Of a stretch of 64,000 nt of DNA, positions 25,637 through 37,643 are shown piece by piece. How positions within the stretch are numbered: the stretch's first letter is position 1; each line of letters begins with the position of its first letter. A program made the position numbers and the translations under genes. The notes beneath the pieces are model-generated. The model searched no databases. It was not told the origin of the DNA and was given only the letters and a program-made list of their open reading frames with translations. This DNA comes from Haliea alexandrii (GTDB lineage Bacteria; Pseudomonadota; Gammaproteobacteria; Pseudomonadales; Halieaceae), in the NCBI RefSeq assembly GCF_003719295.1, contig NZ_RFLW01000001.1, positions 558,001 through 622,000 of the forward strand, given 5' to 3'.

Positions 25637-28498
25637 TCAACGCTCCCTGGGCACGCCGCGAAACTCGGAGACCACGTTGGCGTTGGCATCAGGGCCACTC
25701 GGCAGGCGGATGAAATGCTCAACTGGAAAGTCGAGCGCATCGCGGTCGCGGTCGAGCACGATCAACCCGGGTTCGTCGGTGGTCAGCCAGGCGCCACAGG
25801 CCTCGCCCGCATCGCAAATGAACAGGTCGTTGTCGGCGTCAGTGCCGGCAAATACCTGATAGGTGCCGTCCGGCAGGTCCTGGAAGCGGAAGGCATAGCG
25901 ACCCGCTTCCGCGCGTGCCACGCTTTGTGCAATCGCGGCGTCCGTGGCGGGGTCGTAGACGATTATGTAGAGCACCCCGACGTCCGCCACCGCGGCATCG
26001 CCCACGGAGAGCAGTGCGCGAATCTGCAGGCTGTTGGCACTGGAGCGCGCGCTCACCGTCGCTGAGTAAAGGCCGTCAGCCAGGCCGCTGCGGTCAACCT
26101 GCAGCCGGTAGCGGCCCAGGCCAGCGGTATCGACCTCCAGCGCGCTGACGCTGAGCCAGCTGGCGTCGCTGTCGAGACCCAGCACCTGCAGATTGCCGCT
26201 ACCGCCGTTGCTGAGGGTGATGTCCAGTTGCTCCCTGGTACCGCCAAAGTTGAGCGACTGGCTGGACGCGCGCAAGGTGGCAGGCGGCGTGAACGTTTCG
26301 CCGATACTGGCCAGCGCGGCTTCCACCGCCTTGCGTGCGTTCACCAGTCCGTGCCCGTAAAGATCGTCGCGGCCAGCGCTGCCAAGGTCATCGGTGAGGT
26401 TGCCGCTCTGCAGCAGGGATTCCAGCTGCGGGCCATCCAGCTGCGGATTGATACTCTTCATCAGCGCGATAACGCCTGACACATGCGGTGCCGCCATCGA
26501 GGTGCCGTTGAGGAAGGTGTAGGCGAACTCCACGCCGCCGGCGTCGGCGGAGCCGCCCGTACTGAGGATACCGTCTGGGTAGCCATCGCCGTTGAAATCG
26601 GTACTGCCATCACCACCGGGCGCGCTAATGTCGATGGAGCTACCGCGGTTGCTGTAGCTGGCAATCTCGCGCTGTAAATCTACCGCCGCAACGGAAATAA
26701 CCCCGTCGTATGCCGCTGGATAGGCCGGTGCACGGGTGGCCTCGTTGCCGGCCGAGGCCACCACGATGGTGCCGCGTTCGCGCAACTCGCGGTACAGGGC
26801 CTGATTCATCTGGCTGAAACCCTCACCGCTCAGGCTAAGGTTGATGATAGCTGCCGTGGCTGGGGGGAAGGTGCCGGAGTCGTTGGCGAGACCGGCGGCG
26901 AAGCGCACGGCTTGTGCCACGTCGTAGGACGTGCCGCCGCCGTCATCGAGTGCCCGCAGGGGCATCACGCGAGCGCCCCAGGCGACGCCGCTGACGCCAA
27001 TGCGGTTGTTGCCCCGCGCCGCTACAGTGCCGGCAACGTGTGTGCCGTGAAAGCGGCTATTGCCCGGGTTGGCGCGGTTACCCGGGTCCTCGGGGTCGGG
27101 GTCGATACCGTCGCCATCGGCTGCGGGGTCGCGCACGAAGTCGTAGCCTGCCACCAACTGGCCCGCCAGATCGGGGTGATTGGACAGGATGCCGGTATCA
27201 ATGACCGCGACGACGACGCCCGGATCGCCAATGGTCACATCCCAGGCTGCGGGAAGACCAATCAGCGGGTAGTGCCATTGCAGATCGTAGGCGCTGTCGT
27301 TCGGCTCCAGCGCGGTGTGCAGACGGTAATTGGGTTCAACGTGGCGCACGTCAGGCTGCTGGCGCAGTTGCTTGACGCTGATGAGCGTCTCCCAGCGCTC
27401 GCGGCGGGCGCTGTTCTGGAAGTCGTCTATGCGGCGCGCAGCCGTGCCCAGCCGCTGTCGTTCTGCCTGGCCGGCCAGAATTTCCAGCAGACGCGCGCGG
27501 CCGGGGCCGCCAGCACGTTCCTGCATACCCATCTGGTAGGCCAGATCGGCGTGAAAGAAGCCCGGCGCGAGGATCTCGCTTTCCGCGAATTCCACGATGA
27601 TTTCGCCGGGCACCAGCTCGGCATCCGTGCGTGGTGCGCTGTCGAGTGCCGGGCTGCCGACCGCCAGAATATAGTTGGTTGCACCGAGAAACGCCGTCAC
27701 ATTCACCAGGTAAGTGCCGTTTTCCGGCGCTGTAACCGTTTCGATTTCGCCGGTTTCCACCGAGAAATCGATCACTTCTCCCGCCTCGTTGTAGAGATAC
27801 AGATCCGCATCCGCGTCTTCAAAGCCCGCGACCAGCAGGGTCACCGATTGGGCCGCCAGTAGTTCCAGGCGGAAGTAGTCGTCGATGTCACCCCTGAGTT
27901 GCGAGCGTCCCTCGGCCCCTGTTCCCGGTTGGTTGATATAGCCGCCCAGGGTGACCGGGTTGGCGAGCGCTTGTGCGCTGCCCGGCGTATCGTTTGGCGT
28001 GTAGAGGCTGGCGGTGTCGTTGGTGTCGCCGTCAACGGCCTGGTTGCTGGAGGCGAGCACGGTGCCGCTCAGGTCCCAGCGGCTGACTGCCTCCCCGGTG
28101 ACCGTAATACTGGCGGATGCACTGGCGCTCGCCCCCTGGTTGTCGGTCACGCTCAGCGAGAAAGCGAGGACGGTGTCGGCGCCAACGGTGGGCGCTGTGA
28201 AGCGGGCGGTGGCCGTTTCCTCGCCGACAATGGCCACGGTCGGGCCTTGTGTCTGGCGCCATTGATAGCGGCTGATACTTCCATCGATGTCACGTGAGCC
28301 GCCGCCGTCGAGCGTAACCTCGCTGCCACTTGCCACGGAAGACGGGCCCAATACCTGTGCAATGGGTGGTTGATTGGCGGCTGGCTGGGTTTCACCGTTG
28401 CCCCCACCGCCGCCGCAAGCCGCGAGCAATGCGGCCAGCCAGAGCCCGCAGAAGAGTCTGGTGCTCAATCGGCTGGCGCTGTAGATGTGCTGTGGCAT
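25637..28498 (-). CDS. S8 (subtilisin-like) serine protease lipoprotein
   Basis: A 953-residue surface or periplasmic lipoprotein protease. The lipobox is LLAAC (Cys28) followed by a poly-Gly linker. Then come a PKD/REJ-like Ig domain (about 45-135), a pre-peptidase beta domain (about 165-283), an inhibitor-like propeptide region (about 295-395) and the S8 catalytic domain: Asp434 (AVIDTG), His484 (HGTHVAG), oxyanion Asn585 (ASAGNE) and Ser667 (NGTSMAAP). Two C-terminal beta domains follow (about 735-830 and 845-940). ATG 28498 is chosen as it gives a normal lipoprotein signal. It probably digests external protein. Confidence 0.92.
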   Translation of the reverse strand: MPQHIYSASRLSTRLFCGLWLAALLAACGGGGGNGETQPAANQPPIAQVLGPSSVASGSEVTLDGGGSRDIDGSISRYQWRQTQGPTVAIVGEETATARFTAPTVGADTVLAFSLSVTDNQGASASASASITVTGEAVSRWDLSGTVLASSNQAVDGDTNDTASLYTPNDTPGSAQALANPVTLGGYINQPGTGAEGRSQLRGDIDDYFRLELLAAQSVTLLVAGFEDADADLYLYNEAGEVIDFSVETGEIETVTAPENGTYLVNVTAFLGATNYILAVGSPALDSAPRTDAELVPGEIIVEFAESEILAPGFFHADLAYQMGMQERAGGPGRARLLEILAGQAERQRLGTAARRIDDFQNSARRERWETLISVKQLRQQPDVRHVEPNYRLHTALEPNDSAYDLQWHYPLIGLPAAWDVTIGDPGVVVAVIDTGILSNHPDLAGQLVAGYDFVRDPAADGDGIDPDPEDPGNRANPGNSRFHGTHVAGTVAARGNNRIGVSGVAWGARVMPLRALDDGGGTSYDVAQAVRFAAGLANDSGTFPPATAAIINLSLSGEGFSQMNQALYRELRERGTIVVASAGNEATRAPAYPAAYDGVISVAAVDLQREIASYSNRGSSIDISAPGGDGSTDFNGDGYPDGILSTGGSADAGGVEFAYTFLNGTSMAAPHVSGVIALMKSINPQLDGPQLESLLQSGNLTDDLGSAGRDDLYGHGLVNARKAVEAALASIGETFTPPATLRASSQSLNFGGTREQLDITLSNGGSGNLQVLGLDSDASWLSVSALEVDTAGLGRYRLQVDRSGLADGLYSATVSARSSANSLQIRALLSVGDAAVADVGVLYIIVYDPATDAAIAQSVARAEAGRYAFRFQDLPDGTYQVFAGTDADNDLFICDAGEACGAWLTTDEPGLIVLDRDRDALDFPVEHFIRLPSGPDANANVVSEFRGVPRER

Positions 28499-28655
28499 GG
28501 TAATGATTTCCGCGAACGTCCCCGGCAGTATAGCGACAAATTCCGGCCTGCAACCCTGCGGGTTGCCGTGTCGCTTGCGCCGTCTGATTCCGTCCAGCCA
28601 CTGCCCAGGAAAAGCCGTGGATTTGTTGCTTTTGGAAAGGCATTGCTCTAATTTG

Positions 28656-28669
28656 TACACACGTGTGCA
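28656..28669. promoter_or_regulatory. Palindrome TACACACGTGTGCA (candidate operator)
   Basis: The core CACACGTGTG (28658-28667) is a perfect 10-base palindrome, extended by one more pair beyond a mismatch. It lies in the divergent gap before the amidohydrolase operon, immediately upstream of a predicted -35 box, where a TetR-type or activator dimer could bind. Confidence 0.45.
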
Positions 28670-28673
28670 ATTT

Positions 28674-28702
28674 TTGTGCAGCGCCCATTCATCAACAATA
28701 AT
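28674..28702 (+). promoter_or_regulatory. Candidate promoter of the amidohydrolase/Rieske operon
   Basis: TTGTGC (28674-28679), a 17-base spacer and AATAAT (28697-28702), 30 bases before the ATG at 28732. The -35 match is weak, consistent with dependence on an activator. Confidence 0.4.
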
Positions 28703-28731
28703 GCAATGGTTATTTGCAGAGAGAGAAGGTC

Positions 28732-29964
28732 ATGTCCGATAAATTGATAGTGGTGTCGTCCGACTGCCACGCCGGCCTCCATATCGCCGACTACAAGCCC
28801 TATGTTGAGTCCAAGTATCACGACATCATGGACACCGCCGTGCCGGTGCAGATCGAGATCACGGACAAGGCGGAGCAAAGCTTCCTGATCAAGGAAATCA
28901 ACGATGCCTGGCGCGAGCCCATCAAGAAGCAGCTCACCGGCGCATGGGACTACGACGAGCGTATTGCCATGCTGGCGCAGGATGGCATTGCGGCTGAGGT
29001 GATTTTCCCCGACGGTATTACCGAGATGAACACGCCACCTTTTGGTGCGGGGCTGGGGCTTTCGCCGCGCAATGCGGTGCCGGAACTGCAGTGGGCGGGC
29101 GCGATGGCTCACAACCGCTGGTTGGCCGAGTTTTGTGCCAACGACCCGGCCCGGCATATCGGCGTCGCTTCCATTCCCTTGTTGTGGGATGTCCAGCAGG
29201 CGGTGGATGCCGTGCGCTGGTGCGTCGACAACGGTCTGAAGTCCGTCATGATCCCGACACTCTGGGGTGACAATGACCCCTACCACCATGTGAAGTACGA
29301 CCCGTTCTGGGAAGCGTGCCAGGAGCTGGGCGTGATTGTTCACTTTCACTCGGGCCCGGCACCGCAGCCTGAGTACTTTGGCGAGCAGTGGCCAATGGAA
29401 GACCTGAGCGACAAGCTGCCGGGTGCCATGGGCATTTACGTGTCCGAAGTCATGTGGTGGTTGTACCGCCCACTCACGTTCATGATCTGGGGCGGCGTTT
29501 TTGAGCGTTTCCCGCGGTTGAAGGTCGTGCTCACGGAGGGGGGTACGGTGTTCATGCTGCCACCCTGGTTGCGTTTGCTGGACCACAATTATTTTGATGT
29601 ACAGTTCTCGGCCAAGCTGGGCGACTTCCGCAGCCACCTGTCGATGTCCCCGGGTGAATATTTCCAGCGCAACGTCGCCGTCGGCGCCTCCTGTGTGCCG
29701 CGCGCAGACATCGAGCTACGCAATATCATCGGCATCGACAAGATGATGTGGGGCAGCGACTATCCGCACCCCGAAGGAACCTGGCCGCACACGCAGGACT
29801 ATTACCTCAATACATTCGCCGGTGTCCCAGAGGCGGACGGACGCAAGATTCTCGGCGAGAACGCGATTGCCTGGTACGGACTCGATCGCGCTCGCTTGCA
29901 GGCAGTGGCCGACAGAATCGGCCCCAGCAGCGCTATTTTCCACGCCACGGGGGAAGCCGCATGA
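28732..29964 (+). CDS. Amidohydrolase family protein (Amidohydrolase_2 type)
   Basis: A 410-residue TIM-barrel metal hydrolase/decarboxylase of the amidohydrolase-2 family. Ligand motifs are SSDCHAG near the N-terminus (a DxH version of the usual HxH), VHFHSGP in mid-chain (His) and WGSDYPHPEG near the end (Asp). Relatives hydrolyse ring or ester bonds, or decarboxylate ring acids such as ACMSD and OMA substrates. An AGAAGG site precedes ATG 28732. It is the first gene of a four-gene operon, and its stop overlaps the Rieske gene start (ATGA). Substrate unknown; probably an alicyclic or aromatic acid. Confidence 0.88.
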   Translation: MSDKLIVVSSDCHAGLHIADYKPYVESKYHDIMDTAVPVQIEITDKAEQSFLIKEINDAWREPIKKQLTGAWDYDERIAMLAQDGIAAEVIFPDGITEMNTPPFGAGLGLSPRNAVPELQWAGAMAHNRWLAEFCANDPARHIGVASIPLLWDVQQAVDAVRWCVDNGLKSVMIPTLWGDNDPYHHVKYDPFWEACQELGVIVHFHSGPAPQPEYFGEQWPMEDLSDKLPGAMGIYVSEVMWWLYRPLTFMIWGGVFERFPRLKVVLTEGGTVFMLPPWLRLLDHNYFDVQFSAKLGDFRSHLSMSPGEYFQRNVAVGASCVPRADIELRNIIGIDKMMWGSDYPHPEGTWPHTQDYYLNTFAGVPEADGRKILGENAIAWYGLDRARLQAVADRIGPSSAIFHATGEAA

Positions 29965-30926
29965 CAAAAATCGTCGAGGCCTGCGAGGCAAAAACCAATA
30001 CCACGCCGGAGTTTCCGATGGGGTGGTACTCTGTGGCGCGCAGCCACGAGCTGCAAGTCGGGGAAGTGACGCGTGTGCACGCTTTCGATCGCGAGTTTGC
30101 GCTGTATCGCACGCGGTCGGGCCAGGCTGTGTTGCAGGATGCGTTCTGCCCGCACCTGGGTGCCCACCTGGGCGTCGAGGGGCGTGTCGTCGGTGAGTCC
30201 CTGCGCTGCCCGTTCCACGGCTGGCGTTTCGATACGCAGGGCCAGTGCGTGGAAATCCCTTACTGTGACGAGATTCCGGAGCGTGCGCGTGTTCGCACCT
30301 GGCACACGGAAGAGGGCAACGGTGAGGTCTACATCTGGTTTCATCCACAAAACCTGGCGCCCAAGTGGCCCCTGCCGCAGTTGGTGGAGCTCAGCGATGA
30401 ACACTGGACCGCACCGCGCTACGCGGAGTTTGAGGTTCCCGCCCATATCCAGGATATTGCGGAAAACTCCTGCGACCCGGTGCATTTTCGCTACGTGCAC
30501 AAACAGCCCGATGTGCCGCCCTCGGAGGTCACCATTGATGAAGACGGACGCACGCTGCACCTGCGTTCGGATTCCAGCCAGTCGCAGTTCCCCAACCAGT
30601 TGCACGCCATGGTGCTGAACCCGGGCCTGGCGGTGGTGCGCACCAGCTACGGGCCTAACGCCGAAATGGTGGTGTACAACAGTGCGCAGCCGATCGATCG
30701 GCACACCACGCTGCTGCGCTGGACCCTGACTGTGCGCCGTGAGATTGAAGACCTGGCAGGCGATGATGTGATGAAGGGCATTATTGCCGGCATCCAGGAC
30801 GACTACCCGATCTGGGCCAACAAGGTGCACAAACACAAGCCGGTGTTCTGCCGGGAAGACAAAACGCTGGTGATGTACCGCAAGTGGGTGCGCCAGTTCT
30901 ATATCAACGCTGAGGATGTAAGCTGA
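29961..30926 (+). CDS. Rieske non-haem iron oxygenase, KshA-like
   Basis: A 321-residue oxygenase subunit. The Rieske 2Fe-2S ligands are Cys63/His65 (CPHLGAH) and Cys83/His86 (CPFHGW). The mononuclear iron site is N169-x2-D172-x2-H175-x4-H180 (NSCDPVHFRYVH), a pattern shared with 3-ketosteroid 9-alpha-hydroxylase (KshA) and Nvd/DAF-36-type enzymes. It hydroxylates a hydrophobic substrate using O2 and electrons from a separate ferredoxin reductase; none is encoded nearby. It overlaps the amidohydrolase by 4 bases and ends 1 base before the SDR. A steroid- or terpenoid-like substrate is an inference. Confidence 0.9.
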   Translation: MTKIVEACEAKTNTTPEFPMGWYSVARSHELQVGEVTRVHAFDREFALYRTRSGQAVLQDAFCPHLGAHLGVEGRVVGESLRCPFHGWRFDTQGQCVEIPYCDEIPERARVRTWHTEEGNGEVYIWFHPQNLAPKWPLPQLVELSDEHWTAPRYAEFEVPAHIQDIAENSCDPVHFRYVHKQPDVPPSEVTIDEDGRTLHLRSDSSQSQFPNQLHAMVLNPGLAVVRTSYGPNAEMVVYNSAQPIDRHTTLLRWTLTVRREIEDLAGDDVMKGIIAGIQDDYPIWANKVHKHKPVFCREDKTLVMYRKWVRQFYINAEDVS

Positions 30927-30927
30927 T

Positions 30928-31809
30928 ATGCGCGATTTTACAGGCAAGGTGGCCGTGATTACCGGTGGTGCGAGCGGGGTGGGCCGGTCACTGGCGTTTG
31001 CCCTCGGCCGTCGAGGAGCCCGCATAGTGGTGGGCGACGTCGATGAAACGGCCATGGCCGATATCGATCAGGCATTGGCTGCGGAGGGTATCGAGGCACG
31101 GGTGGCGCATTGTGACGTCACCAGCGCGGCCAGCCTCGAGAGTCTCGCGAATGTGGCCACTGAACATTTCGGTGGCATTCAGCTGGTATTTGCCAACGCG
31201 GGCATTGGTGCGGGGGAGTCCGGCGCCATGTGGGACTACTCCGAGAAGGACTGGCAGTGGTGCTTCAACGTTAATATCTGGGGTGTTATCAATTCTATCC
31301 GCGTGTTCATGCCGCGCCTGATAGCTGCCAATGAGCCCGCTCACTTCGTGGTCACTGGTTCGGGCAACGGCGCGCTGTTGGTGTTCCCGGATGCCCCTAT
31401 CTACACTGCGAGCAAGGCTGCGGTGCACGCCATTACCGAAAACCTGCACTATCAGGTGCAGGCGGCACAGAGCCCGGTGAAGGTGAGCGCTTTGTTCCCT
31501 GGCCCACACGTGGTGGAGACGGGCCTCTTCAACTCCGGCCGTGTGCGCCCGGAGGCGTTGAAGAAAGAGGTCGAAGGCAATGCATCCGGTATCAGTTCCG
31601 TTGATGACATGAAGCGTATGGCCGCGGAGTACGGTATCGAATTGCAGACCACGCATCCCGATGAGGTGGCGGCAATGGCCGTGGCGGGGCTGGAGGAGGA
31701 CGCTTTCTGGCTGCTGGCGACAACGCCGGAAACTGACGAAAAAATTCGCGCCCGGGCGGACATGATCCTCAATCGCACAACGCCGGCGCCCAATATGGTG
31801 GGCGGCTGA
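30928..31809 (+). CDS. Short-chain dehydrogenase/reductase
   Basis: A 293-residue SDR with cofactor motif TGGASGVG (residues about 12-19), acidic residues after beta-2 (VGDVDE), which favours NAD, the ANAG motif (FANAGIG) and the catalytic YTASK (Tyr/Lys) with Ser in TGSGNG. It is longer than a FabG-like SDR, with a variable C-terminal lid (about 205-245) covering the substrate pocket. Only one base separates it from the Rieske gene, so it likely oxidises the hydroxylated product to a ketone. This order is inferred from context. Confidence 0.9.
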   Translation: MRDFTGKVAVITGGASGVGRSLAFALGRRGARIVVGDVDETAMADIDQALAAEGIEARVAHCDVTSAASLESLANVATEHFGGIQLVFANAGIGAGESGAMWDYSEKDWQWCFNVNIWGVINSIRVFMPRLIAANEPAHFVVTGSGNGALLVFPDAPIYTASKAAVHAITENLHYQVQAAQSPVKVSALFPGPHVVETGLFNSGRVRPEALKKEVEGNASGISSVDDMKRMAAEYGIELQTTHPDEVAAMAVAGLEEDAFWLLATTPETDEKIRARADMILNRTTPAPNMVGG

Positions 31810-31852
31810 ACGCTATCCCCGATCTTCATAAACAGAATAAGGAAGAGAGCCA

Positions 31853-32635
31853 ATGACCTCAGCAGAAGGTGCCCCCCAGGGCAATACGGGCGATATTGCC
31901 AACTGGCCGATGCTCAAGATTGTGTATCGCACCGACCCCGAAGCAGTCGCCGCGGTGTTGCCTCCGGGTATTACCCCGGGGGCCGACCCATACGTCAACC
32001 TCACCATTTACAACGTGCCGGTGCCGGACGAGCCTGAATACGGCATTTTGCAAACCGTGAATGCGGATTACGATGGCGTCGCGGGCGAGTACGCGCTCGG
32101 CTACGGTATCGACCAGGAGTCGGCCATCTTCATCAGCCGCGACCACAATGGCCAGCCCAAATACCCCTGCGAGACAGATTATTACCGGTTGGGGTCTGCA
32201 GTGCGCGCGCGCTGCACACACCAGGGCTACACGTTTGTCGAGTTTCGCGGTACCGCGAGTGGCGAGAACGAACCACAAGCGGAGTTTGATCTGAACGAGT
32301 GGTGGGTGAAGTTCTCTCTCGCAGTGGGCGCCATGCCCGATGCTGCCAACGGCTATGATTTTCCGCCCCATGTGGTGCATGTGTTGAGCCGCTATGGCTG
32401 TGCCTGGAAAGAGCGGGTCGATGGCGAGCTGGTGCTGCACGACAGCCCCTGGGACCCGCTGGCGAGCCGCCTACCCCTGCGTGAGCAGATCTCGGCGCAC
32501 CTCTGGTGGCCCACCTTTCTGGGGCGCGACATCAAGCTCGCCGGCAAGCTGGACCCGGAGGCGTTCAAGCCCTTTACAGATACGATTTCCGGCTCGCGCT
32601 GGAAGGGAAGCCAGGGCGGCCCTCTGCGTAGCTGA
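31853..32635 (+). CDS. Acetoacetate decarboxylase-family protein
   Basis: A 260-residue protein of the ADC fold. The probable Schiff-base lysine is K103 in HNGQPKYP, and the family features LPPGITPGADPYVNL and the EYALGYGI strand are present. Members decarboxylate beta-keto acids or act as aldolase-dehydratases through a lysine imine. It has an AAGGAAGAG site and is the last of the four-gene catabolic operon, 43 bases after the SDR. A role on the ketone formed upstream fits, but the true reaction is unproven. Confidence 0.85.
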   Translation: MTSAEGAPQGNTGDIANWPMLKIVYRTDPEAVAAVLPPGITPGADPYVNLTIYNVPVPDEPEYGILQTVNADYDGVAGEYALGYGIDQESAIFISRDHNGQPKYPCETDYYRLGSAVRARCTHQGYTFVEFRGTASGENEPQAEFDLNEWWVKFSLAVGAMPDAANGYDFPPHVVHVLSRYGCAWKERVDGELVLHDSPWDPLASRLPLREQISAHLWWPTFLGRDIKLAGKLDPEAFKPFTDTISGSRWKGSQGGPLRS

Positions 32636-32645
32636 AGGTAGCGCC

Positions 32646-32680
32646 AAAAAAAACGGCCTACCCCATGAGGGGCAGGCCGT
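32646..32680 (-). terminator. Intrinsic terminator of katG
   Basis: On the minus strand an 11-pair GC-rich hairpin with a single mismatch (stem from ACGGCCTGCCCC to GGGGTAGGCCGT, loop TCAT) is followed by eight Ts. It lies directly after the katG stop at 32702. For the plus strand the ADC-family gene could use the same stem but lacks the T-run. Confidence 0.9.
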
Positions 32681-32701
32681 TGTATGCGGTGGGCGTGAGC
32701 C

Positions 32702-35017
<2,316 letters not shown>

Positions 35018-36443: not shown

Positions 36444-37643
36444 ATGTCGCTGCGCAAAGTCAAACACGCCCTCACCCTGTTCTTGATGAAGACCCTCGCG
36501 GGGCTCGCGCCCTCGCCAGCCTATATGGTGTATCTCGGTTCTGGCAGTGCCGCACAGCTCTGCCGGCATATTGTGCGCAGCGGGGCCGGCAAGCTGCTGG
36601 TAGTGACCGACAAACCCCTGCGTGAGCTTGGTATTGTCGATCAGGCCACGGCAGCTCTGGCCGATGCAGGCTTGTCCATGGTGGTGTATGACGGCGTGGA
36701 GCCAAACCCGACCTATGCCCAGGTTGCCGCTGGCCGCGCCCTGATGCGCGAACACGGCTGCGATGCGGTATTGGCAATTGGCGGTGGCTCCTCCATTGAT
36801 GCCGCCAAGATCATCGCCGCCTCGGCTACCAGCGAGGAGGACCCGAAAACCTGGGTGGGCTTTGGTAAGGTCAAGCACGACGTGCCGACGTTGTACGCTA
36901 TCCCCACGACGTCTGGCACCGGCTCCGAAGCGACCATGGGTGCCGTGATTTCCGACTCCGTGAGCCATGAAAAAGGTGTGATATCCGGATCCCCGCTGTT
37001 GCCGGCGGCGGTTGCCCTTGATTCTGATCTCATGCTCGGCATGCCGGCGCCGATTACCGCCGCCACGGGCATGGACGCGCTGACGCACGCGATTGAGGCG
37101 TTCATCTGCGTGTGGGACCGGGGCACACGCAAAGCCCATGCGAGCATGGCGGTGCGGTTGATCTTCGCCCATCTGCGGGACGCCGTGGCCGATGGCAGCA
37201 ACCGCGAAGCACGTGATGCCATGGCGCTTGCGGCCTACTACGCGGGTATCGCCATCAATCAGGTGAACGTGGGCAATGTGCACGCGATCGCACATCAGAT
37301 CGGCGGCAAGTACGGTATTCCCCACGGTCTTGCCAATTCCCTGGTACTGCCGCACGTATTGAATTTCTGCCGCACAGAATCCGAGCAGGACCTGGCAGAG
37401 CTTGCCGTGCTCGCCGGTGTTGGTGAGTCCGGTCAGGATGCCGCGCGACTGGCAGGCCAGTTTATTGATGCGGTCGTGCAGTTGCGCGCCGACGTGGGTA
37501 TGCCGGATACCTCGGACCGTATCCGCCCGCAGGACTACGGCTACCTCACCGACCTGGCGCTGAAGGAATGTGAGAGCTATCCGGTGCCCAAGTTGCTGGA
37601 GCGCGATCCTACCCTGGCGATTCTGCGCGCAATTACGGCCTGA
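36444..37643 (+). CDS. Iron-containing alcohol dehydrogenase
   Basis: A 399-residue group III alcohol dehydrogenase. The nucleotide-binding motif is GGGSSIDAAK, followed by PTTSGTGSEAT. The iron ligands are Asp and His in DALTHAIEAF and the HAIAHQIGGKYGIPHG region (His residues). It oxidises an alcohol or reduces an aldehyde with NAD(P). CCGGAG precedes the start. The 67-base gap from the diguanylate cyclase suggests a separate unit. Substrate unknown. Confidence 0.93.
   Translation: MSLRKVKHALTLFLMKTLAGLAPSPAYMVYLGSGSAAQLCRHIVRSGAGKLLVVTDKPLRELGIVDQATAALADAGLSMVVYDGVEPNPTYAQVAAGRALMREHGCDAVLAIGGGSSIDAAKIIAASATSEEDPKTWVGFGKVKHDVPTLYAIPTTSGTGSEATMGAVISDSVSHEKGVISGSPLLPAAVALDSDLMLGMPAPITAATGMDALTHAIEAFICVWDRGTRKAHASMAVRLIFAHLRDAVADGSNREARDAMALAAYYAGIAINQVNVGNVHAIAHQIGGKYGIPHGLANSLVLPHVLNFCRTESEQDLAELAVLAGVGESGQDAARLAGQFIDAVVQLRADVGMPDTSDRIRPQDYGYLTDLALKECESYPVPKLLERDPTLAILRAITA

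Follow-up and report, generated by a model that had tools for sequence, protein, structure and literature searches.

A conserved four-gene operon of Halieaceae that pairs a probable dinuclear oxygenase with a Rieske oxygenase and may act on steroid-like compounds

The 64,000-nucleotide stretch of Haliea alexandrii DNA analysed here, referred to as the window (C1:558001-622000 in a genome of 3.96 Mb), contains four consecutive genes which the initial annotation had described as a catabolic operon for an amidohydrolase, a KshA-like Rieske oxygenase, a short-chain dehydrogenase/reductase (SDR) and an acetoacetate-decarboxylase (ADC)-family enzyme. The genes and the evidence for their assignment are as follows:

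28732-29964, plus strand: gene 1, Amidohydro_2 (PF04909) protein of 410 residues, probable amidohydrolase-related dinuclear oxygenase (ARO); Pfam, alignment, profile and fold searches
29961-30926, plus strand: gene 2, KshA-type Rieske oxygenase of 321 residues; Pfam, comparison with KshA, alignment
30928-31809, plus strand: gene 3, SDR of 293 residues; Pfam, NCBIfam, alignment
31853-32635, plus strand: gene 4, ADC-superfamily enzyme of 260 residues; Pfam, alignment, fold search

Both the coordinates and the tight spacing were confirmed from the sequence, with genes 1 and 2 overlapping by 4 bases (ATGA) and gaps of 1 base between genes 2 and 3 and of 43 bases between genes 3 and 4. The four family names are likewise borne out by domains beyond their Pfam cut-offs, with expectation values (E) of 1.6e-32 for Amidohydro_2 in gene 1 (113.9 bits against a cut-off of 26.4), 2e-21 for Rieske and 6.4e-28 for KshA_C in gene 2, 2.6e-36 for adh_short in gene 3 and 2.9e-36 for ADC in gene 4. 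The reading as a single catabolic operon is supported.

The ADC protein matched 209 stretches from 163 named relatives, and gene content was compared over the best 80 loci. All four genes are present in 48 of these and follow the order Amidohydro_2-Rieske-SDR-ADC in 45, so that the genes stand together in relatives instead of being scattered; on account of this conservation the arrangement is far from chance. Among the 60 loci with at least 4.5 kb of upstream sequence, 43 carry the complete set, two only Rieske and ADC genes and three the ADC gene alone. Against the four-gene reading count the nine loci of this set in which solely the SDR gene is missing, and the absence of gene 1 from three loci that keep Rieske and SDR genes and from the two that keep the Rieske gene alone. 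The 20 loci fetched from the family gave a similar distribution (all four genes in 14, without SDR in three, without gene 1 in one and a P450-type cluster in two). A survey of 120 genomes of the family gave ADC matches for 78 (E 1e-3) and gene-1 matches for 75 (E 1e-60), with 74 genomes having both. The idea of the ADC gene as a chance neighbour was rejected, as 74 of the 75 genomes with gene 1 have an ADC match, albeit at a loose cut-off; for the SDR gene the same rejection is weaker, given its absence from nine of the 60 loci.

The titles of the named ADC relatives point mostly to Halieaceae or its genera, including Haliea, Parahaliea, Halioglobus, Luminiphilus, Seongchinamella and Kineobactrum, while others read merely Gammaproteobacteria, Cellvibrionales and the like; the exceptions are an Alteromonadaceae metagenome-assembled genome (MAG), a Spongiibacteraceae MAG, Litorivivens and Zhongshania. 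Because relatives at E 1e-25 were detected in only 2 of 369 genomes sampled across the class (the own genome and one other), the module seems almost restricted to Halieaceae. Beyond the family, the matching loci of Zhongshania (Spongiibacteraceae), Litorivivens (unplaced Gammaproteobacteria) and the Spongiibacteraceae MAG (L144, L077 and L079) contain no ARO gene within their 9-kb flanks. The Litorivivens-type loci (L077:12737-15312, L079:12642-15283) have a Rieske-ADC pair without ARO, followed by a luciferase-like monooxygenase gene (supported by Pfam in L077 only) and a P450-like gene. In the plasmid collection, the ADC protein found only three distant records, and gene 1 found 194 records, all below 60% identity. 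In one same-genus genome the ADC gene appears to be split into two overlapping frames of 95-99% identity (G027:C10:128113-128890), possibly by a frameshift or a sequencing error.

The family PF04909 includes carboxylases, hydratases, hydrolases and a small class of oxygenases, the AROs, as outlined in PMC10811679. In gene 1, the six predicted metal ligands D11, H13, H206, E269, D343 and H346 and the second-sphere acid E348 are invariant in 18 aligned sequences. The six ligands, unlike H204, hold in seven more distant sequences. All six are kept in four actinobacterial homologues of 25-38% identity, one of which lacks the acid at position 348. H206 was preferred to H204 as the predicted ligand because it pairs with the corresponding histidine of PtmU3 and DitZ and, unlike H204, is kept in the four actinobacterial homologues. 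The spacing of these residues resembles that reported for LynB7 (D11, H13, H197, E252, D320, H323 and D325; PMC10127204) and for AibH2 (ligands D25, H27, H211, E265, D337 and H340, with D342 nearby; PMC7782822). The acid two residues past the last histidine is E348 in gene 1, E313 in PtmU3 and D342 in AibH2. Since all seven ARO residues are present and invariant, gene 1 probably encodes a dinuclear oxygenase of the ARO class rather than a hydrolase. The name amidohydrolase would thus hold for the family and probably not for the function, the ligand set being that of an oxygenase.

PtmU3 (5e-26) and DitZ (4e-24) were the top two of 35 matches in the profile search, for which the printed alignments comprise five matches and leave the N-terminal D-x-H outside, and Foldseek on the gene-1 model (pLDDT 74.2) returned DitZ first and then PtmU3. 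Some observations speak against the assignment: decarboxylases score close behind these two by fold, DitZ and PtmU3 are only 23-25% identical in the structural alignments of the model, and the solved structure 4dzi, labelled only "hydrolase", has the same C-terminal residues. Gene 1 might instead encode a PF04909 decarboxylase or hydrolase with a single metal, leaving the Rieske protein as the only oxygenase, as the label of the initial annotation implies, as the family name and fold would suggest and as is consistent with matches to 5-carboxyvanillate and ACMS decarboxylases (4icm, 6e-16), which are also near in Foldseek. The residue test discriminates between the two possibilities because, at the positions of E269 and H346, PtmU3 and DitZ have E and H in the printed alignments, where the decarboxylases 4icm and 2wm1 have H and Y/F. 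Considering also the invariance of the seven ARO residues and the substitution of the gene by a P450 gene in paralogous clusters, we regard a mononuclear enzyme as quite improbable.

One such paralogous cluster lies on contig C7 of the own genome (L013:7960-12694) and consists of genes for a P450, a Rieske protein, an ADC protein 54% identical to that of the window and an SDR, with an adjoining TetR-like gene; the P450 and TetR genes were named by eye. The P450 version recurs in two other genera (L063, L064), and thus P450 occupies the place of the ARO in three clusters in total. This replacement fits the oxygenase assignment of gene 1, which predicts that one monooxygenase may stand in for another. 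A receptor-like gene, of TonB type by eye, separates the ADC and SDR genes in L063 and L064. A third ADC copy of the own genome, on C6, is only 22% identical and placed in a different context.

In the Rieske protein, the [2Fe-2S] ligands C63, H65, C83 and H86 and the iron-site residues D172, H175, H180 and D281, whose roles are established for the family, are invariant in 22 aligned sequences. The description as KshA-like is right as to the KshA_C domain and ligands, but a closer relative of KshA is encoded elsewhere on the same contig: the Rieske protein at L152:7171-8259, whose gene adjoins an HsaA-like gene (1e-86), matches KshA with E 9e-87, compared to 5e-41 for the window protein. Judged by these values, the latter is not the KshA of this genome nor an orthologue of 3-ketosteroid 9alpha-hydroxylase, and the difference makes it likely that another position or another substrate is attacked. 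Its best NCBIfam match is SdmA, with 70.7 bits against a cut-off of 600, whereas the KshA-like protein of the genome reaches 38.3 bits. According to PMC6385002, SdmA oxidises a C-4 methyl group three times. The match suggests, weakly, that a methyl group is oxidised, after which a ketone is formed and a decarboxylation takes place. In the SDR, T12-G17 together with G19, S145, Y159 and K163 are invariant in 19 aligned sequences, and the protein is otherwise an ordinary member of its family.

As the initial annotation had noted, no reductase of PF00970 is encoded within the 64-kb window. Three PF00970 places exist elsewhere in the genome; none of them is convincing as an unlinked partner of the Rieske protein, two being a phenol-hydroxylase-type reductase and NqrF by eye. 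Another reductase-like frame on C9, also identified by eye, is equally unconvincing.

The substrate had been left unnamed in the initial annotation; on the basis of genomic association, a steroid-like compound now appears most likely. Co-occurrence was analysed in the 120 family genomes, of which 78 are of high quality and which represent 28 genera, using cut-offs of 1e-80 for HsaA and 1e-60 for the ARO. Both genes are found in 72 genomes, the ARO only in three, HsaA only in 14 and neither in 31 (Fisher p 1e-14; odds ratio 53). The corresponding numbers are 56, 0, 6 and 16 for the high-quality genomes and 20, 0, 2 and 6 for the genera (p 7e-5). With the control KatG, which is present in 105 of the 120 genomes, HsaA-like genes are associated much less strongly (odds ratio 3.5, p 0.03).

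The two sets of genes are also found near each other. The same sample includes 17 ARO loci of the 50-53% identity type, and in at least nine of them an HsaA-like gene is no more than 8 kb away. The genes of L170 follow one another as HsaA-, HsaD- and HsaC-like, SDR, ADC, ARO, Rieske and SDR, with a TonB receptor gene nearby (best NCBIfam models HsaA 7e-105, HsaC 8e-92 and HsaD 3e-48). L167 looks like L170 in gene order, and L165/L166 and L168/L169 contain HsaA- and HsaD-like genes, with no HsaC-like gene in the stretch read; these gene orders were partly read by eye. One genus includes six genomes with an HsaA-like gene 28-38 kb away from the operon. In G035, a single contig, HsaC-, HsaA-, HsaD-like and FadD3-family genes follow 22-36 kb downstream of the operon (ca. 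35-40 kb by another estimate), accompanied by a 2-oxopent-4-enoate-hydratase-like gene below the cut-off and by genes for a 4-hydroxy-2-oxovalerate (HOA) aldolase and an acetaldehyde dehydrogenase, both above it. The FadD3-family ligase itself exceeds its cut-off (691 against 657 bits). G012 has relatives of HsaA, HsaC, HsaD and FadD3-type genes, and no hydratase, aldolase or dehydrogenase gene in the stretch read. Three further genes there, which are not family matches, we take to be IpdA, IpdB and EchA20. Genes for thiolase-like and OB_ChsH2_C proteins adjoin the ADC gene in L096 and L109 (Pfam for L096 only). The search of the own genome for the 9,10-seco pathway took in HsaA, KshA and KstD; apart from the HsaA-like gene adjoining the KshA-like Rieske gene, it yielded a 3-ketosteroid-dehydrogenase (KstD)-like gene (1e-133) on C5 together with another Rieske gene. 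On the Rhodococcus gordoniae plasmid pDND3A (L178:7836-11113), an ARO-like relative of 33% identity with all six ligands directly follows an annotated HsaA gene and precedes that of a VOC protein. Published observations point in the same direction: growth on cholesterol is described for isolate BC51 of the Halieaceae (PMC5790920), and OM60 members are among the predicted steroid degraders (PMC4810484). A gene named as an amidohydrolase also lies near kshA in a steroid-induced cluster of Comamonas testosteroni JLU460ET (PMC10637631). A full operon is present in L116, titled Halioglobus japonicus BC5_1, which to judge from the name is perhaps identical with isolate BC51.

Several points weigh against a steroid-like substrate. 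The co-occurrence was determined within one family, and shared ancestry inflates all p-values; many of the HsaA-like matches reach no more than 38-54% identity, and the ARO cut-off of 1e-60 admits two genomes (G085, G100) with matches of only 43-44%. The window itself has no HsaA-like match, the nearest among the matches listed being ca. 310 kb away. Moreover, the HsaA-, HsaC- and HsaD-like neighbours stay below the equivalog cut-offs. So do two proteins of the own genome, the HsaA-like one with 410 bits (cut-off 450) and the KstD-like one with 600 bits (cut-off 789). In addition, pDND3A is the only one of three examined plasmid relatives, from 20 matches listed, that lies beside HsaA. The same four enzymes might process a diterpenoid, triterpenoid or other polycyclic or aromatic compound, the HsaA/C/D-like genes then belonging to a steroid-like meta-cleavage route for a non-steroid. 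Besides the sub-threshold scores, the nearly equal scores of the BphC/BphD and HsaC/HsaD models would favour this, as would the name of DitZ, which we take to be of the diterpenoid-pathway type. PtmU3, the other of the two nearest solved relatives, hydroxylates a diterpenoid-CoA, as stated in PMC10127204. However, the FadD3-family ligase above cut-off in G035, the genome-wide pairing with HsaA-like genes and the KstD-, KshA- and HsaA-like genes of the own genome argue for the steroid-like substrate, and we consider a non-steroid one rather unlikely. As a separate observation, DUF3604-type proteins recur in the neighbourhood of these clusters, at L055:3570-5453, L166:863-2821, L167:316-2199 and L168:15856-17853 (Pfam for L055 only, the others by likeness), and sulfatase-like genes were noticed by eye in L166 and L168, so that sulfated substrates are conceivable.

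K103 in the GQPKY/F motif of the ADC-superfamily protein is shared by all 22 aligned sequences and pairs with the PK-motif lysine of the solved ADCs 3c8w, 3bgt and 3bh2. Gene 4 therefore likely encodes a Schiff-base enzyme. In acetoacetate decarboxylase, a lysine directly following the Schiff-base lysine serves to lower its pKa; here residue 104 is Y, or F in L059 and L062, compared to K in 3c8w, and a second lysine is thus absent from this position. The protein is probably not a classical acetoacetate decarboxylase. Its model folds like ADCs and aldolase-dehydratases (Z 15.7-18.1; 15-19% identity in structural alignments), the two groups being nearly tied, with three of four ADC-named entries at Z 17.8-18.1 and the fourth at 16.4, and the aldolase-dehydratases and Swit_4259, whose activities are in part those given in entry titles, at 15.7-16.8. 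The weight of this comparison is lowered by the quality of the model (pLDDT 74.7), which falls below 50 for residues 89-102 just before K103. The protein might act as a hydratase or aldolase on meta-cleavage products and belong to the lower pathway instead of the oxygenase module. Both the fold match and the Y/F at position 104 would agree with such a role, as would the fact that only a few genes separate ADC from HsaC/HsaD-like genes in L167 and L170. On the other hand, the slightly higher scores of the three ADC-named entries, the lack of an HsaA-like match near the operon in the genome of the window and the separate hydratase-like, aldolase and aldehyde-dehydrogenase genes of the G035 stretch oppose it, and we regard a lower-pathway role as a possibility worth keeping in view, though a doubtful one.

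We therefore favour, with moderate confidence, a conserved catabolic operon of Halieaceae in which ARO, Rieske oxygenase, SDR and ADC-superfamily enzyme jointly process a polycyclic compound, most likely a steroid or one derived from sterols. The ARO-type dinuclear (Fe/Fe or Mn/Fe) monooxygenase of gene 1 and the Rieske-type second oxygenase of gene 2 would introduce oxygen, the SDR might convert the resulting, or an existing, alcohol to a ketone, and the predicted Lys103 Schiff-base enzyme of gene 4 might catalyse decarboxylation, retro-aldol cleavage or (de)hydration of that ketone. The chemistry first envisaged, hydroxylation, oxidation to a ketone and C-C bond cleavage, is thereby corrected to probably two oxygenations in place of hydrolysis plus one hydroxylation. 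In a more far-reaching version, which we consider a long shot, the operon would form a self-contained module for the oxygenative removal of carbon, by a route of widespread marine bacteria that differs from those of SdmA/B and of the eukaryotic demethylases. ARO and Rieske oxygenase would successively oxidise an unactivated carbon, e.g. the C-4 methyl group of marine 4-methylsterols, as far as an aldehyde or acid; the SDR would form a neighbouring ketone and the Schiff-base ADC enzyme would then expel the carbon.

Two further features flank the operon:

28653-28670, no strand assigned: palindromic operator-like site TTGTACACACGTGTGCAA, corresponding in position to TTGTATACAAATGTGCAA of relatives with a divergent TetR gene
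36444-37643, plus strand: iron-containing alcohol dehydrogenase, recurrent downstream neighbour and looser member of the neighbourhood

The palindrome upstream of gene 1, reported in the initial annotation, is present; within three mismatches, TTGTACACACGTGTGCAA occurs once in the window compared to 0.08 times expected. In 38 of 56 upstream regions a divergent TetR-like gene is found, and 31 of these contain the consensus TTGTATACAAATGTGCAA with at most one mismatch and 37 with at most four, a count that is partly circular since the consensus was read from the same 56 regions; shuffled sequences gave 4 of 1120 with at most four mismatches. Of the 18 regions without TetR, the window and L065-L068 match TTGTATACAAATGTGCAA with three to four mismatches, and the other 13 have nothing better than seven. 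The degenerate pattern TTGTAYACANNTGTGCAA has a single exact match in the own genome, namely this site. Because the site matches the TetR-linked consensus while the TetR gene is absent here, the palindrome is most simply understood as a diverged TetR operator whose regulator was lost or replaced. Ancestrally, a divergent TetR regulator would probably have acted at the palindrome, its gene having since gone from the locus in the clade of the window. A TetR orthologue elsewhere in the own genome was rejected, the best relative being 31% identical; the Haliea clade of the window thus has an orphan operator, with neither a TetR gene at the locus nor a close copy in the genome. The weak promoter proposed beside the palindrome was not recovered: a promoter scan of 28450-32900 gave two promoter-like sites, compared to 1.5 expected from shuffles, neither of them upstream of gene 1.

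Downstream, an iron-containing alcohol dehydrogenase gene recurs in 38 of the 80 ADC loci. Directly after the ADC gene lies a katG gene (32702-34948), as also in the same-genus genomes G027, G043, G063 and G077, while in G069 and G073 katG is found on a contig other than that of the operon. Between the convergent ADC and katG genes, there is a strong hairpin of 13 pairs (32652-32681) that has its T-run on the minus strand.

Halieaceae (OM60/NOR5) occur widely in coastal seas. Should the proposed reading hold, dozens of genomes carry a false hydrolase designation for these "amidohydrolases", and the AROs acquire a catabolic branch whose partner is a full Rieske oxygenase and not a small Rieske ferredoxin; the question of the substrate then becomes directly testable in culturable strains bearing the operon. 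Among characterised systems, PtmU3 of platensimycin/platencin biosynthesis (PDB 6omp) shares the PF04909 fold, is the best-scoring solved sequence for gene 1 and has residues identical to H206, E269, D343, H346 and E348 in the profile alignment; it differs in being only 25% identical in the structural alignment and in acting biosynthetically on a diterpenoid-CoA. We know of no operon in which PtmU3 is combined with a Rieske oxygenase. DitZ of Rhodococcus (PDB 8uyr), for which no function was found in the papers searched, ranks first in Foldseek and second in the profile search and conserves H206, E269, D343 and H346, but has D instead of E two residues past the last of these. AibH2 and LynB7, which like SfbO are AROs, share the six ligands and the second-sphere acid with similar spacing. 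In contrast to gene 1 and its full-length Rieske neighbour, AibH2 is paired with AibH1 and a small Rieske ferredoxin, according to PMC7782822. KshA, the 3-ketosteroid 9alpha-hydroxylase, resembles gene 2 in the KshA_C domain and in the Rieske and iron ligands, although the HsaA-adjoining Rieske protein of the genome is much closer to it. The bacterial sterol C-4 demethylase SdmA/SdmB likewise combines a Rieske enzyme with a second redox enzyme (PMC6385002); it is biosynthetic, its two enzymes suffice without ARO or ADC, and the window protein remains far below the SdmA cut-off. ADCs and aldolase-dehydratases (MppR, the Streptomyces bingchenggensis enzyme and Swit_4259) share with gene 4 the fold and the PK-motif lysine, the ADC 3c8w differing in the residue that follows it. 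The initial annotation had not recognised this exact combination as a described pathway, and no description was found in the open literature, most subscription journals lying outside the search. While the families themselves are already known, the four-gene combination and the ARO-Rieske pairing are new as far as the open papers searched show.

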